Below, piece after piece: positions 6,794 to 37,683 of a DNA stretch of 42,771 bases. The number at the start of each line of letters is the position of its first letter. Position 1 is the stretch's first letter. The position numbers were made by a program, and so were the translations under genes. The DNA lies in assembly GCA_947170005.1 (NCBI GenBank), contig CAMVRX010000003.1, positions 1 to 42,771 on the forward strand. Direction: 5' to 3'. The stretch is from an uncultured Elusimicrobium sp. GTDB taxonomy: Bacteria > Elusimicrobiota > Elusimicrobia > Elusimicrobiales > Elusimicrobiaceae. The notes beneath the pieces were generated by a model. The model was not told where the DNA came from. It worked only from the letters and a program-made list of their open reading frames with translations, and made no database searches.

Positions 6794-7012
6794 ATCTGTT
6801 TTTGGAACCGTACGAAGGTGCGGTGCTCTTGGAAAGTTTCCAAGTTCTATTCTAGACCGAAAATAGGCGTTTGAGGCACAGTATGATAAAGCTGATCCCT
6901 TTGTTGTACTGGGCCGAGTGTTTCCCGCTTGCGGGAAACCGCGGCTATGTCGCTTAGGCACTAGAATAGACTGAGCGTTGGTAGCCGTTTTTTGTTGGTT
7001 CCTCAAATGGAT
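6794..7012 (+). ncRNA. Structured 5' leader RNA element, copy A (upstream of prepilin 7044-7556)
   Basis: Closing stem atctgtttttgga/tcctcaaatggat; hairpins ccgtacgaaggtgcgg and cttggaaagtttccaag; long stem tctattctag(6846-6855)/ctagaataga(6961-6970); hairpin gtttcccgcttgcgggaaacc; GCGGCTATGT; GCCGTTTTTT. Confidence 0.8.
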
Positions 7013-7043
7013 AAATTGAAATAAAAATATGAGGAGACAACAA

Positions 7044-7556
7044 ATGAAAAAATGGAACAAACGGGGGTTTACCCTCATTGAGCTGTTAGTAGTGGTGTTA
7101 ATTATTGGTATTTTGGTGGCCGTCGCTGTGCCACAATACCAGGTGGCCGTGGAAAAAGCACGGGTCGCCCAAATGTTGCCCATGATGCGCCATATTTATG
7201 ATGCCTTGGCTTTGTATAAGCTGGAACATGGAAATTATTGGAACGAAGAGGACGACTTGCCCTCATGGGACGAATTGGGAATAGAACCTCCGTCTGGATT
7301 CTCACAGAACGCATATACAGAATTTTACAATGATACTTGGTATTGTTTCCCCAATGAAGAAAGGACCGGATATGTATATTGTAATTCCGAGCAGTCTTAT
7401 ACTATAAAAATGTGGCAACCGGACGATGCAGACAGTGTGTTGGCTGGGAAACGAGCCTGTATTGTAGGTGCGGCTGGCACTGTTGGGGAACGGGTATGCA
7501 AAGCACTGGGAAAGGAGATAGAAGACGACGATTACAGCGGGTATTACTTTTTTTAA
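7044..7556 (+). CDS. Prepilin-like / pseudopilin protein (copy 2), short leader
   Basis: MKKWNKRGFTLIELLVVVLIIGILVAVAVPQYQ; SD gaggag; ATG 7044 preferred over 7029. Confidence 0.94.
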   Translation: MKKWNKRGFTLIELLVVVLIIGILVAVAVPQYQVAVEKARVAQMLPMMRHIYDALALYKLEHGNYWNEEDDLPSWDELGIEPPSGFSQNAYTEFYNDTWYCFPNEERTGYVYCNSEQSYTIKMWQPDDADSVLAGKRACIVGAAGTVGERVCKALGKEIEDDDYSGYYFF

Positions 7557-16247: not shown

Positions 16248-16835
16248 CTAATCGCAGTAATGTAATGCAGAACCATAATTTGTTTTTAATAAATCACATA
16301 ACCACTTTCCATGTGATTTATTACTCGACCAATCATTAATTATTTTGGTCCCATCGGCGAAAAAGAGAATATCCACCTCATAACCGTTTGTGAGGCCATT
16401 CCGTCGTTCGCTTGTGATATATATGCAGGGGCTGGTTCCATATGACTCACAATCCCCTTCTGGGTTACCGCATTCTTGTATCGCAAATTCGAAGTTTTCT
16501 GTGTTATAGGTAGAACCGTTCCATGCTCCTCCCACAAAAGATTCAAATGCCTTACAGACGGTACTGCTGTCTGGAGGAATTGTTCCTGCTAAAAAGGCCA
16601 ATTGGCTTTCTTTTTCTATTCCGTTTACGATGTTCATCCATTCGGTCCATCGCGCTTTTTCGACGGCTTTTTGGTATTGCGGCACGGCTACTGCGGCTAA
16701 AATGCCGATAATCAGTACTACTACCAACAGTTCAATGAGCGTAAAACCCCGTTGTTTACCTCGCCCCTGGAGGGAGAGGGTGGCCGAAGGCCGGGTGAGG
16801 GGGTTGTTTAACAAGTTTACATTTTCAGTTTTCAT
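16248..16835 (-). CDS. Prepilin-like / pseudopilin protein (copy 3), leader with palindromic repeat
   Basis: MKTENVNLLNNPLTRPSATLSLQGRGKQRGFTLIELLVVVLIIGILAAVAVPQYQ; SD aaaagga; start 16835 preferred. Confidence 0.93.
   Translation of the reverse strand: MKTENVNLLNNPLTRPSATLSLQGRGKQRGFTLIELLVVVLIIGILAAVAVPQYQKAVEKARWTEWMNIVNGIEKESQLAFLAGTIPPDSSTVCKAFESFVGGAWNGSTYNTENFEFAIQECGNPEGDCESYGTSPCIYITSERRNGLTNGYEVDILFFADGTKIINDWSSNKSHGKWLCDLLKTNYGSALHYCD
16754..16805 (-). repeat. Palindromic repeat in prepilin leader, same family as 64-110
   Basis: tacctcgcccctggagggagagggtggccgaaggccgggtgaggggg. Confidence 0.8.
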
Positions 16836-16837
16836 TT

Positions 16838-17068
16838 TGTTTTTCCTTTTGCTTAATGGCCGGATTAGCATAACAAAAACGGCCGTCCTGCTAATCTGCA
16901 AAAGGGGTAGATTAACACCACAGCCGTGGCTACCGTACAAGACGGTAAGCACTCGGCACAAAATAATGGGTTTCGAAGGTCCATTATCTTGTGCCTAATT
17001 CGGCTGTTTTTGACCCTTTTGCGTATTTTCATACACGCCGCACCTTGCGTGCGGCTTCAAAAACAGAT
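16838..17068 (-). ncRNA. Structured 5' leader RNA element, copy C
   Basis: Minus strand: atctgtttttgaa...; hairpin gccgcacgcaaggtgcggc; long stem gcaaaaggg(17014-17022)/cccttttgc(16898-16906); ggcacaagataatggaccttcgaaacccattattttgtgcc; acggctgtgg; gattagca..GCCGTTTTTG..tgctaatc. Confidence 0.8.
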
Positions 17069-19940: not shown

Positions 19941-20618
19941 TTACAAACAATCTTTGCAGGCATAAAAATCTTGTGTATTTTCAAGCCAATTGCAAATTTT
20001 TCCCCCTATGGGTGAAACATTAGTATCGTAATCACACTCGTCATGGCGCCAGCTACTGTTAGCGGTATCCTTAAGAATATTTAGCATGTATGCAACATTA
20101 TCATCCAAGGTGCGGTATACATAAATCCAGCAACTGCCGTCGTGAGCACACCCGGCGTCATACGCAAAATGTTGGTTGCCACAGGCTTCTCCCTCGCGAA
20201 TACTGCAATCCAGCCCATCTTCAATATCGATATCTAGTTGTCCCGAACCGTTGGCATTATCACCTAAAAATGCGATATCTTCCGTGCGCGTTCCATTTGC
20301 AAGTTGCCAGGTATCAATGGCTTTTTCTAAACTGGAAATCAGAATAAACGCCTCCGAGAGACGTGTCTTTTCTACGGCTACTTGGTATTGCGGTACCGCT
20401 ACTGCTGCTAAAATGCCGATAATCAATACGACGACCAAAAGCTCTATGAGCGTAAAACCGCAAAGCCGTTTATGTAGATCGGGTTCTACCTGACAATAAG
20501 CGTTGTCTTTTCCAATTGTCAAAGAGGAAGGATGCCCCTTAATCGGGGCATTGTCAGGCAGTGCCTGACCTACCCGATTGATTTGCGTAAAACCCCGCCG
20601 GGCGTTTCTTTGATTCAT
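19941..20618 (-). CDS. Prepilin-like / pseudopilin protein (copy 4), leader enlarged by about 45 codons
   Basis: MNQRNARRGFTQINRVGQ...LCGFTLIELLVVVLIIGILAAVAVPQYQ. Confidence 0.93.
   Translation of the reverse strand: MNQRNARRGFTQINRVGQALPDNAPIKGHPSSLTIGKDNAYCQVEPDLHKRLCGFTLIELLVVVLIIGILAAVAVPQYQVAVEKTRLSEAFILISSLEKAIDTWQLANGTRTEDIAFLGDNANGSGQLDIDIEDGLDCSIREGEACGNQHFAYDAGCAHDGSCWIYVYRTLDDNVAYMLNILKDTANSSWRHDECDYDTNVSPIGGKICNWLENTQDFYACKDCL
20460..20594 (-). repeat. 135-bp in-frame insertion with two palindromes, bounded by a 10-bp direct repeat
   Basis: gcgtaaaacc at 20450-20459 and 20585-20594; palindromes gatgccccttaatcggggcat and gtcaggcagtgcctgac. Confidence 0.75.
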
Positions 20619-20636: not shown

Positions 20637-20857
20637 AATCTGTTTTTGGAGAAATACAAAAAACGGCTCATTGTATCTATGGGCTAGTTACAGAACATAA
20701 ACACAACAGCCGTAGTTCACCACAAAGTGATAAACATTCAGCATAAGTAAATGGGTTTCGAAGGTCCATAAACTTATGCTTATAAGCTGCTGTCTTCGGC
20801 GTAACTAGCCCCCTGTTGCCAGGGTTCTGCGTTTCTTAAACGCTTCCAAAAACAGAT
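20637..20857 (-). ncRNA. Structured 5' leader RNA element, copy E
   Basis: Minus strand: atctgtttttggaa/tctccaaaaacagatt closing stem; hairpins gcgtttaagaaacgc and ccctggcaacaggg; long stem gggctagttac(20801-20811)/gtaactagccc(20681-20691); gcataagtttatggaccttcgaaacccatttacttatgc; gtttatcactttgtggtgaac; acggctgttg; atacaatgaGCCGTTTTTTgtat. Confidence 0.85.
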
Positions 20858-24377: not shown

Positions 24378-25055
24378 TTATTCGGGACGTTCGTCATAAG
24401 GTTGGATTCCATAGCTAGCCAAACTTTGGCACACTTTATAACCTACGTCATCATAGCCTGTGCAGTCCCCAGAAGCGCCGGGATCAGTGGGGGGAAATAA
24501 AGCAATATGATAAGAACAGTAATTTGGACGTTCTCCGCACTCTCCCTCTTTATCAGAGCGACAGGCTTCTACTTGTGCAGGGTCATCAAATTCATACCAA
24601 AAATGCTTAGTACAGTAGTAATCTCCGTCTTCGTTCCATACTCCACCTGAAAATTCCATAATATCCTGTGGGTAGAAACGACGACTACCATGTTCTAAGG
24701 AATCTAGTATCTGAGCTTGTTGCGCATTTTTAAGAATAACTAATGCTTCGGTTGCGCGACTTTTTTCTACAGCTACTTGGTATTGCGGTACAGCTATGGC
24801 TGCCAAAATACCAATGATGAGCACAACGACCAACAGCTCTATGAGGGTAAACCCATGGGCTGCTTCCCTCGCCCCTGGAGGGAGAGGACGAGTGCGCCAG
24901 CACCGTGGTGAGGGGGTGCAAAACAAAGCTTTTCTTTTTAATACCCCCTCATCTATCCTGCGGACATCTTCCCCCTCTAGGGGGGAAGTAAAAAATAGAT
25001 CCCGCCCTACCTGTACTGTTTGCGTATTACCCCGCCGGGTATTTCTTTGGGTCAT
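24378..25055 (-). CDS. Prepilin-like / pseudopilin protein (copy 5), long leader
   Basis: MTQRNTRRGNTQTVQVG...AHGFTLIELLVVVLIIGILAAIAVPQYQ. Confidence 0.93.
   Translation of the reverse strand: MTQRNTRRGNTQTVQVGRDLFFTSPLEGEDVRRIDEGVLKRKALFCTPSPRCWRTRPLPPGAREAAHGFTLIELLVVVLIIGILAAIAVPQYQVAVEKSRATEALVILKNAQQAQILDSLEHGSRRFYPQDIMEFSGGVWNEDGDYYCTKHFWYEFDDPAQVEACRSDKEGECGERPNYCSYHIALFPPTDPGASGDCTGYDDVGYKVCQSLASYGIQPYDERPE
24866..24988 (-). repeat. Two consecutive palindromic repeats in prepilin leader
   Basis: 24866-24919 ccctcgcccctggagggagagg...gtgaggggg; 24943-24988 accccctcatctatcctgcggacatcttccccctctaggggggaag. Confidence 0.75.
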
Positions 25056-25067
25056 TTTTGTTTCTCC

Positions 25068-25287
25068 TTGGGGTTTTTAGGAAAAACAAAACGGCTCATT
25101 TGCTCTGTGGACAGTCAAGCGCACAAAACAAACAGCCGTAGTTTGCCCCCTTACGAGGGCAAACATTCGGCACAACTCACCGGGCTCATGACTTCCCGCT
25201 AAGTTATGCCTTAAATTAGGCTGTTCTTAGGGTTGACTGTCGATTCGCTTACGCAAACCGCATCCTTACGGATTTCCTAAAAACCAA
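25068..25287 (-). ncRNA. Structured 5' leader RNA element, copy F
   Basis: Minus strand: ttggtttttagga/tcctaaaaacccc (compensatory change in closing stem); hairpins atccgtaaggat, ggtttgcgtaagcgaatc; long stem gacagtcaa(25233-25241)/ttgactgtc(25110-25118); gtttgccctcgtaagggggcaaac; acggctgttt; GCCGTTTTG. Confidence 0.8.
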
Positions 25288-32029: not shown

Positions 32030-32252
32030 ATCTGTTTTTGGAAGCGTTTAAGAAACGCAGCGCCTTTTGTAAAGGGCACAATTCAGGTTCAAAGACAGCT
32101 GTTATTAGGTACAAAATAATGTTTTTTCGCGAACTCATTATTTTGTACCGAGAGTTTACCGTGAAAACGGTGAACCACGGCTGTTGTAGTTGGGTTACCT
32201 GAATTGGCTCAAATGCAACTGCCGTTTTTATGTGCATTTCTCCAAAGCAGGT
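32030..32252 (+). ncRNA. Structured 5' leader RNA element, copy D
   Basis: atctgtttttgga/tccaaagcag; gcgtttaagaaacgc; cctttt..aaaggg; long stem aattcaggt(32080-32088)/acctgaatt(32197-32205); ggtacaaaataatg..cattattttgtacc; gtttaccgtgaaaacggtgaac; acggctgttg; aaatgcaactGCCGTTTTTatgtgcattt. Confidence 0.85.
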
Positions 32253-32302: not shown

Positions 32303-32959
32303 ATGAAAAAAGAAAATGCAGTTGTAAAAAATGACGGCATCCTGAGCTTGACTCAGGACCTTCAACGCCAGTCATTGCCGTTATGCTTGTGTAACAGCGT
32401 GCGTGGAAGATGGCAGATCAAGTCTGCCATGACGTCTTTATATCGCCGCGCATTCACTCTCATTGAACTTTTGGTAGTGGTACTCATCATTGGTATTTTG
32501 GCGGCGGTGGCGGTGCCGCAATACCAAAAAGCAGTGGAAAAATCACGCGCGGCAGAAGCCATGCAAATACTTAAAAGTCTGCGTGATGCGCAAGCATTGT
32601 GCATACTGGAGCACGGAGCATCAAGCGATGCTTGCGGTTGGGGAGACGGTGGAACGCAAGGGATAGGAGAACTGTTTGATAATATATCCGTTGACATCCC
32701 AGGCGAAATAGTTGCAACTCCTTTTGACGGAGACGGCATACAAACCAAGTATTTTCAATATGGTGTTATAAGCATTGATGACGATGTAGCAGATCTCTGC
32801 GCAAGCCGTTCCATATCTTCTGATGACGGATACACAATATGTACCAGTGCTAACCCTAATGGAGGTGTATATTATAATCAGTTTATTTGTACACATAACA
32901 CTGCCCAATGGTGTCCTTCTCTGGGTTTCAAGCAGTCGGGAAGTAAGTGGATTTTATGA
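32303..32959 (+). CDS. Prepilin-like / pseudopilin protein (copy 6), long leader
   Basis: RRAFTLIELLVVVLIIGILAAVAVPQYQKAVEKSRAAEAMQ; SD aggaga. Confidence 0.93.
   Translation: MKKENAVVKNDGILSLTQDLQRQSLPLCLCNSVRGRWQIKSAMTSLYRRAFTLIELLVVVLIIGILAAVAVPQYQKAVEKSRAAEAMQILKSLRDAQALCILEHGASSDACGWGDGGTQGIGELFDNISVDIPGEIVATPFDGDGIQTKYFQYGVISIDDDVADLCASRSISSDDGYTICTSANPNGGVYYNQFICTHNTAQWCPSLGFKQSGSKWIL
32341..32430 (+). repeat. Palindromic repeats inside prepilin leader
   Basis: cctgagcttgactcagg (32341-32357) and atggcagatcaagtctgccat (32410-32430). Confidence 0.65.
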
Positions 32960-36868: not shown

Positions 36869-37088
36869 CTGTTTTTGGAAGCGTTTTAGAAACGCGGAAC
36901 TCTTTTGAAGAGGGAATAATCACGCCAAAGGCAGCCTATTGGGCGTAAAGAGAAGGGCCTTCGAAACCCGGCTCTTTATGCTTAATGTTTGCTATTTACA
37001 AAAATAGTAAATTACGGCTGTTGTATTTATGTTCTGTGATTATTCCATAAATATAGCGGCCGTTTTTGCATGCGTTTTTCCAAAACAG
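36869..37088 (+). ncRNA. Structured 5' leader RNA element, copy B
   Basis: ctgtttttggaa/ttccaaaacag; gcgttttagaaacgc; ctcttttgaagag; long stem ggaataatcac(36913-36923)/gtgattattcc(37036-37046); gcgtaaagag..ctctttatgc with ccttcgaaaccc; acggctgttg; GCCGTTTTTG. Confidence 0.85.
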
Positions 37089-37122
37089 AAAAATTGAAAA
37101 CTAGTTGCAAAGGAGAAATAAA

Positions 37123-37683
37123 ATGACAGTAGTAAAAAATACCCGGCGGGGTTTCACGCTCATAGAGCTGCTGGTCGTGGTGCTGATTATTGGCATATTA
37201 GCTGCGGTAGCGGTGCCGCAGTATCAAAAAGCAGTAGAAAAGAGTCGGTTAGCGGAAGCATTACAACTTACAACCAGTCTTCAAAGGGGAATTGATTTGT
37301 GTCTCCTTTCCAATCCTTGGCCAAATGCAGGCGATACGACTTGGTTTTTGGGTTTGGAAGAGGCGTTTTCTGGTCATAACACCAAGGACAATCTAGATAT
37401 AGATGTGGAAAGCGGGCTAATTTGTGATCAGGAGAACGGACGCACGTGTCGTGGGAAAAATTTTGCATACCAGGCTAATTGTAATATTACCAGTTGTCAT
37501 ATATATGCGAGTCGGTATCAAAATGGGGTAGTAGAAGGAACCCCTCAATACATGCTAGATATAAACCGTCAGTTATCTAATAGCGGATGGGAAAAGGTAT
37601 GTTGGTACGAAGAAGATAAACCCATTGGCGCGGCTATCTGTAAGAGTTTGGAATCTCAAGGTTGGAGTGCAGAAGAACTGTAA
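37123..37683 (+). CDS. Prepilin-like / pseudopilin protein (copy 7), short leader
   Basis: MTVVKNTRRGFTLIELLVVVLIIGILAAVAVPQYQ; SD aaggag; ATG 37123 preferred. Confidence 0.94.
   Translation: MTVVKNTRRGFTLIELLVVVLIIGILAAVAVPQYQKAVEKSRLAEALQLTTSLQRGIDLCLLSNPWPNAGDTTWFLGLEEAFSGHNTKDNLDIDVESGLICDQENGRTCRGKNFAYQANCNITSCHIYASRYQNGVVEGTPQYMLDINRQLSNSGWEKVCWYEEDKPIGAAICKSLESQGWSAEEL

Follow-up and report, generated by a model that had tools for sequence, protein, structure and literature searches.

A predicted transcription attenuator repeated before prepilin and other surface genes in one bacterial genome and its relatives

The leader RNA described here is probably a cis-acting transcription attenuator of surface genes and the representative of a new class, with termination predicted from its sequence. 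Its strands are ordered a-P2-P3-b-c-P5-P6-d-e-f from 5' to 3', in which c is CCAAARACAGCC, d begins with ACGGCUGUU, e is the terminator loop, and f ends in AGCCGU followed by a U-run. The arrangement forms a chain similar to that of the trp attenuator, because the helices a.c and d.f (stop) are set against c.d (read-through). The window, i.e. the whole 42,771-nucleotide stretch of DNA that was analyzed, contains six copies of the leader, one of which (25086-25287, minus strand) is more divergent. The layout of copy E is as follows:

20846-20855, minus: strand a, CUGUUUUUGG; pairs with c (a.c covariation in 144 copies)
20800-20811, minus: strand b; its partner is the terminator loop e, 20681-20692 (copy-specific complementarity)
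20788-20799, minus: strand c, CCGAAGACAGCA; partner of a or d (a.c and c.d covariation)
20714-20787, minus: hairpins P5 and P6, inside c.d; candidate sensor junction (copy E fold and aligned copies)
20702-20713, minus: strand d, ACGGCUGUUGUG; partner of c in the antiterminator or of f in the terminator (c.d and d.f covariation)
20663-20713, minus: predicted terminator hairpin d-e-f; single long hairpin fold, -22.3 kcal/mol
20663-20674, minus: strand f, ACAAUGAGCCGU; GCCGU-bearing 3' arm of the terminator
20658-20662, minus: U-run directly after the terminator hairpin
19941-20618, minus: prepilin gene 3' of copy E (N_methyl, PF07963, E 9.3e-8)

The other copies in the window also precede prepilin genes:

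6796-6993, plus: leader copy A, before prepilin 7029-7556
16874-17066, minus: leader copy, before the prepilin ending at 16248
25086-25287, minus: divergent leader copy, before prepilin 24378-25055
32032-32230, plus: leader copy, before prepilin 32303-32959
36869-37068, plus: leader copy, before prepilin 37105-37683

In copy E, GCCGU is located at 20663-20667 and ACGGC at 20709-20713 (minus strand). An A+T-rich stretch resembling TACAATTT lies 5' of strand a and may be a promoter. A seventh prepilin gene is found at the contig start (33-578, plus strand), and any leader of this gene would fall outside the contig. Judged by its gene content, the organism appears to be a member of the Elusimicrobiota.

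A covariance model of the leader core, R1, was built from an alignment of eleven copies. In the genome of the window (1.07 Mb, 73% complete), the search gave 91 sense-strand matches with E <= 2e-5; the sole weaker match lies antisense to the copy at 16874-17066 and is its shadow. Pairing statistics were calculated on 144 distinct copies, consisting of these 91 and 53 from relatives.

The terminator hairpin and the helices that compete for its strands

A first-pass annotation of this DNA had placed a GCCGU hairpin loop and its complement, described as an invariant ACGGC, at 20660-20720. This interval nearly coincides with the terminator hairpin, and the 6-bp ACGGCU/AGCCGU pairing is indeed present there on the minus strand, far beyond chance. 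The complementarity, however, is not limited to GCCGU and ACGGC but runs on as a long hairpin, which in copy E has the form ACGGCUGUUGUG...ACAAUGAGCCGU-UUUU. Nor is ACGGC invariant outside the window, where GCGGC, CCGGC and GCGAC are also present. The stretch from ACGGC to GCCGU forms a long hairpin with an immediate U-run in 141 of 144 copies, with folding energies of about -15 to -32 kcal/mol. In the 141 copies with both elements, 93.8% of the nine d.f pairs are standard, compared with 26-75% after shifting one strand by 1-3. Covariation is strong in the upper stem, and compensated copies include CGGU/ACCG in L097 and CGAC/GUCG in L105.

The d-e-f hairpin and its U-run are therefore described as a predicted intrinsic terminator, positioned 5' of the gene. 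The 8 positions counted from the last stem base contain 4-7 U, and the U-runs are short in some copies. A terminator score of the d'Aubenton-Carafa type was above 0 in 81% of copies and not above 0 in 19%. The simple terminator scan of the window, which covered loops of 3-8 only, did not call the hairpin; its loop is about 10 nt or more, longer than usual.

In the pseudoknot form of the original proposal, GCCGU in a hairpin loop pairs with ACGGC and competes with a junction stem, and no terminator is involved. Such a model now appears very improbable, as GCCGU is the 3' arm of a predicted terminator whose 5' arm begins with ACGGC, and this continuous hairpin with its U-run is found in nearly every copy. 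The 3' hairpin that would present GCCGUUUUU/GCCGU is supported more weakly, though genuinely: flanking complementarity reaches 11.3, against 9.8 ± 0.19 in permuted data, while at least 5 pairs are formed in only 83 of 141 copies. For this hairpin to form, transcription must already have passed the terminator.

A terminator of its own would also suit a free-standing small RNA, with the pilin gene placed under a separate promoter, and terminated leaders would be RNAs of about 200 nt. The spacing of 36-45 nt between terminator and start codon (copies A, E and F), however, hardly leaves space for a promoter, 86 of the 91 copies stand before the same gene class, and a conserved antiterminator pairing would serve no purpose in such an RNA. 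A free-standing RNA is thus highly doubtful.

The second pairing proposed earlier, of GCUGU with an upstream ACAGC, was also found, and what had been termed a junction stem is the competing antiterminator, c.d. Standard pairs make up 97.4% of its six pairs, compared with 18-64% (maximum 63.6%) in slid registers of the 141 copies with both elements. The pair c8.d7 is formed in 139 of 141 copies, whereas 1000 shuffles reach at most 136. Ten copies have A at d7, and these are mostly not mutual nearest relatives. In L083 and L113, the A at d7 fits c and mismatches f, and c.d can therefore be kept apart from d.f. Because c.d is short (5-6 bp) and mostly invariant, its covariation rests on few positions. 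The changes noted earlier in copy A, GCGGC and AUAG/CUAU, belong to the copy at 6796-6993 (plus strand), and in 9 of the 10 copies with CUAU the facing position is U.

The c.d pairing is thus a conserved alternative helix, and its strand d is shared with the terminator, so that the two structures exclude each other. Both pairings are conserved with compensatory changes, and the two-state regulatory RNA suggested at first remains the best reading of the leader.

Two helices were absent from the annotation: the copy-specific b.e and a third competing helix, a.c. Strand a, CUGUUUUUGG, pairs with strand c, CCGAAGACAG (CCAAARACAG), of which the ACAG doubles as the 5' strand of the antiterminator. 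In register, 98.1% of a.c cells are standard pairs, compared with at most 58.5% in slid registers, and the mean number of pairs is 9.81 of 10, against 9.61 ± 0.014 when partners are shuffled between copies. Covarying pairs include CUAUUUUUGA/UCAAAAAUAG and CUGUUUUGGG/CCCAAAACAG. Covariation in the aligned copies supports all three helices, a.c, c.d and d.f. A helix of strand a with the 3' end near the Shine-Dalgarno sequence, striking in copy E, was considered separately; it was weak overall (15.8 versus 13.4 shuffled), strong in 30 of 141 copies, and was left outside the core model.

The copy-specific helix b.e and the proposed switch

In each copy, the approximately 10 nt directly 5' of strand c can pair with that copy's own terminator loop, with a mean of 10.0 bp within copies and 5.2 bp between copies. 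The score of this helix, b.e, is 23.97, compared with 11.45 ± 0.21 in 5000 permutations of copies, i.e. 59 standard deviations above. The sequence of b.e varies copy by copy, its length is mostly 9-11 bp, and its position within the terminator loop is fixed to within about 1 nt. Strand b is separated from c by only 0-1 nt in 135 of 141 copies. This near-zero gap suggests that b.e stacks on a.c as an H-type pseudoknot in which the terminator is kept whole or almost whole; alternatively, in the read-through state, b.e could enclose c.d as a nested helix. Together, a.c and b.e likely form a pseudoknot, other than the one first proposed.

The following order of events is proposed. Strand a is transcribed first and would be able to pair with c. 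Where a.c forms, d would be left for f, the long hairpin with its U-run would arise, and RNA polymerase would be released some tens of nucleotides 5' of the start codon. In this stop state, the terminator loop is probably docked next to a.c by b.e in the manner of an H-type pseudoknot, given that only 0-1 nt lie between b and c. In the read-through state, c.d would close a three-way junction with P5 and P6, the terminator would not form, and the gene would be transcribed. A signal, either a small molecule or a protein, may stabilize the P5/P6/c.d junction and so lead to read-through. The sequence itself shows the helices, how they covary and exclude each other, and that they lie before genes, and we infer that termination takes place in vivo and that b.e is part of the stop state. 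Both structural features of an attenuator that were looked for, a predicted terminator 5' of the gene and a helix that excludes it, are present in the leader sequence.

Energies were obtained by folding with enforced helices in Vienna, in which pseudoknots are excluded, and are crude. Transcripts ending just after d gave means of -57.3 (a.c) and -58.6 (c.d) kcal/mol, and complete leaders gave -79.4 (stop) and -74.3 (read-through) kcal/mol. By these calculations, the choice between a.c and c.d would be nearly balanced until f is made, as expected for a switch decided during transcription. Since the stop state is the one predicted to be favored in complete leaders, read-through would need a factor or kinetic control.

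Relation to known regulatory RNAs and the nature of the signal

The leader would work like a trp-type attenuator, yet it matched no known RNA family searched (Rfam 15). At gathering score, no Rfam 15 family, including GEMM, T-box, cobalamin and others, matched the window or 11 leader loci, and the best sub-threshold matches of copy E were at chance level. No description of such a leader was found in the literature. In trp- and his-type attenuators, which share the same chain logic, segments 1.2 and 3.4 (terminator) are opposed to 2.3 (antiterminator), as a.c and d.f are opposed to c.d here. The present leader differs from them in having no conserved leader peptide, in the P5 and P6 hairpins between segments 2 and 3, in the additional helix b.e formed with the terminator loop, and in its surface-gene targets. 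A leader peptide as the general mechanism was rejected: a Shine-Dalgarno sequence with an open reading frame of at least 8 codons was present in 9 of 141 copies, and the peptides were unrelated.

T-box leaders are likewise cis leaders that choose between terminator and antiterminator, but no T-box match was found in Rfam and the targets here are not amino-acid genes. In cobalamin riboswitches, kissing occurs between the aptamer region and the expression hairpin. The pairing of an expression-hairpin loop with an upstream segment is similar here; however, there is no Rfam match, and the helix is 9-11 bp long, private to each copy, and located in the terminator loop. Riboswitches for c-di-GMP (GEMM) occur in several copies, also before pilin genes. 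They resemble the present RNA as several-copy cis leaders of surface genes, and terminator-type expression platforms exist for GEMM, whereas size and core differ and the Rfam match is lacking.

A specific form of the attenuator reading, which we regard as possible and hold tentatively, is a small-molecule riboswitch in which the P5/P6/c.d three-way junction is the aptamer and a ligand, such as a cyclic dinucleotide, leads to read-through. The linkers around the junction are conserved, the many copies before surface genes recall the c-di-GMP riboswitches, and GGDEF proteins were detected in 89 of the 90 genomes of the window's family. Genera that lack the RNA have GGDEF proteins just as often, though, the P5 tips differ between subtypes, and no Rfam riboswitch matches. 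Since GGDEF proteins also occur in genomes without the RNA, c-di-GMP is possible as the ligand but not indicated. With similar reserve, one sensed signal might control about 90 scattered pilin genes through a new riboswitch class, known to date from two families in one phylum, a cis terminator switch whose terminator loop would be docked on a copy-specific 10-nt strand in a pseudoknot beside the switching helix.

Control of the attenuator by an RNA-binding protein, bound to P5/P6 or to the a.c/b.e pseudoknot, is judged somewhat unlikely. A long, multi-hairpin structured leader common to a large regulon would fit such control, but no candidate protein emerged from the search, which covered NusG: nearly all NusG-bearing genomes have a single NusG match, and no LoaP- or RfaH-like paralogue was seen. 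An antiterminator of the NusG-paralogue type was rejected on the same count.

Distribution of the leader and its target genes

Among the 91 copies in the genome of the window, 86 are directly before prepilin genes, 4 are at contig ends, and 1 is before another gene. With a leader of about 200 nt, these copies constitute about 1.7% of the genome DNA. We know of no bacterial cis-regulatory RNA class that occurs in such numbers in one genome. How a choice is made among more than 80 pilin genes in one bacterium becomes a directly testable question, and the comparative set of over 170 sequences can be used in the search for a ligand or a binding protein.

At least one R1 match was found in 78 of the 90 genomes of the family, confined to two of six genera, with 0-4 matches in most genomes and more than 40 in several, in a search that counted no more than 46 per genome. 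Even among members of one genus, the copy number extends from 0 to more than 40. In the survey of the phylum, 89 of 342 genomes had R1 matches, eleven of them in a second family. Almost every locus examined in the second family retains the helices a.c, b.e and d.f; in this family the P5 tips differ and the RNA is located before glycosyltransferase, methylase and prepilin genes. Targets elsewhere include GT8 and GT2 glycosyltransferases, LicD, outer-membrane barrels, TPR proteins, a DNA methylase and likely lipoproteins. No blastn match and no pattern match in viral contigs pointed to a plasmid or phage element.

These targets also bear on a stochastic form of the attenuator, in which near-balanced folding would give random read-through and cells would differ in their pilins, an RNA form of phase variation. 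The energies of a.c and c.d are balanced, and pilins, glycosyltransferases, LicD and DNA methylase resemble classes that are often phase-variable; however, the folding energies are crude and the sequence leaves room for a sensor, and this form is considered improbable.

Few or no leaders accompany the tens of prepilin genes found in many relatives, and the leader expansion is therefore lineage-specific. Among the few prepilins of R1-negative relatives that were examined, no such leader was found.

Some further observations were made on the leaders and on the prepilins. The alternative P5 tip sequences GAAGUCAUGAGCCC and GCUGAUCCC are found, respectively, in the window at 25131-25231 (minus strand) and in L141, and in the window at 6857-6949 and in L134 and L147. 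The genome of the window thus shares these alternative P5 tips with the distant second family, as if they were exchangeable modules. Prepilin (N_methyl) matches number from 12 to at least 80 in family genomes, G004 and G067 among them, which is strikingly high for genomes of 1-2 Mb and also holds for genomes with few or no copies of the leader RNA. The prepilin leader peptides are at least 25 aa long in 38 of 86 cases, with the recurring pieces VGQALPD and GHPLPP. In many prepilin genes, in-frame palindromic repeats follow the start codon and precede the GFTLIE cleavage site (in the window at 16750-16800, 20460-20610 and 24855-25050, and in further prepilin genes of its genome), and by analogy these may recall the in-frame palindromic elements of Rickettsia.
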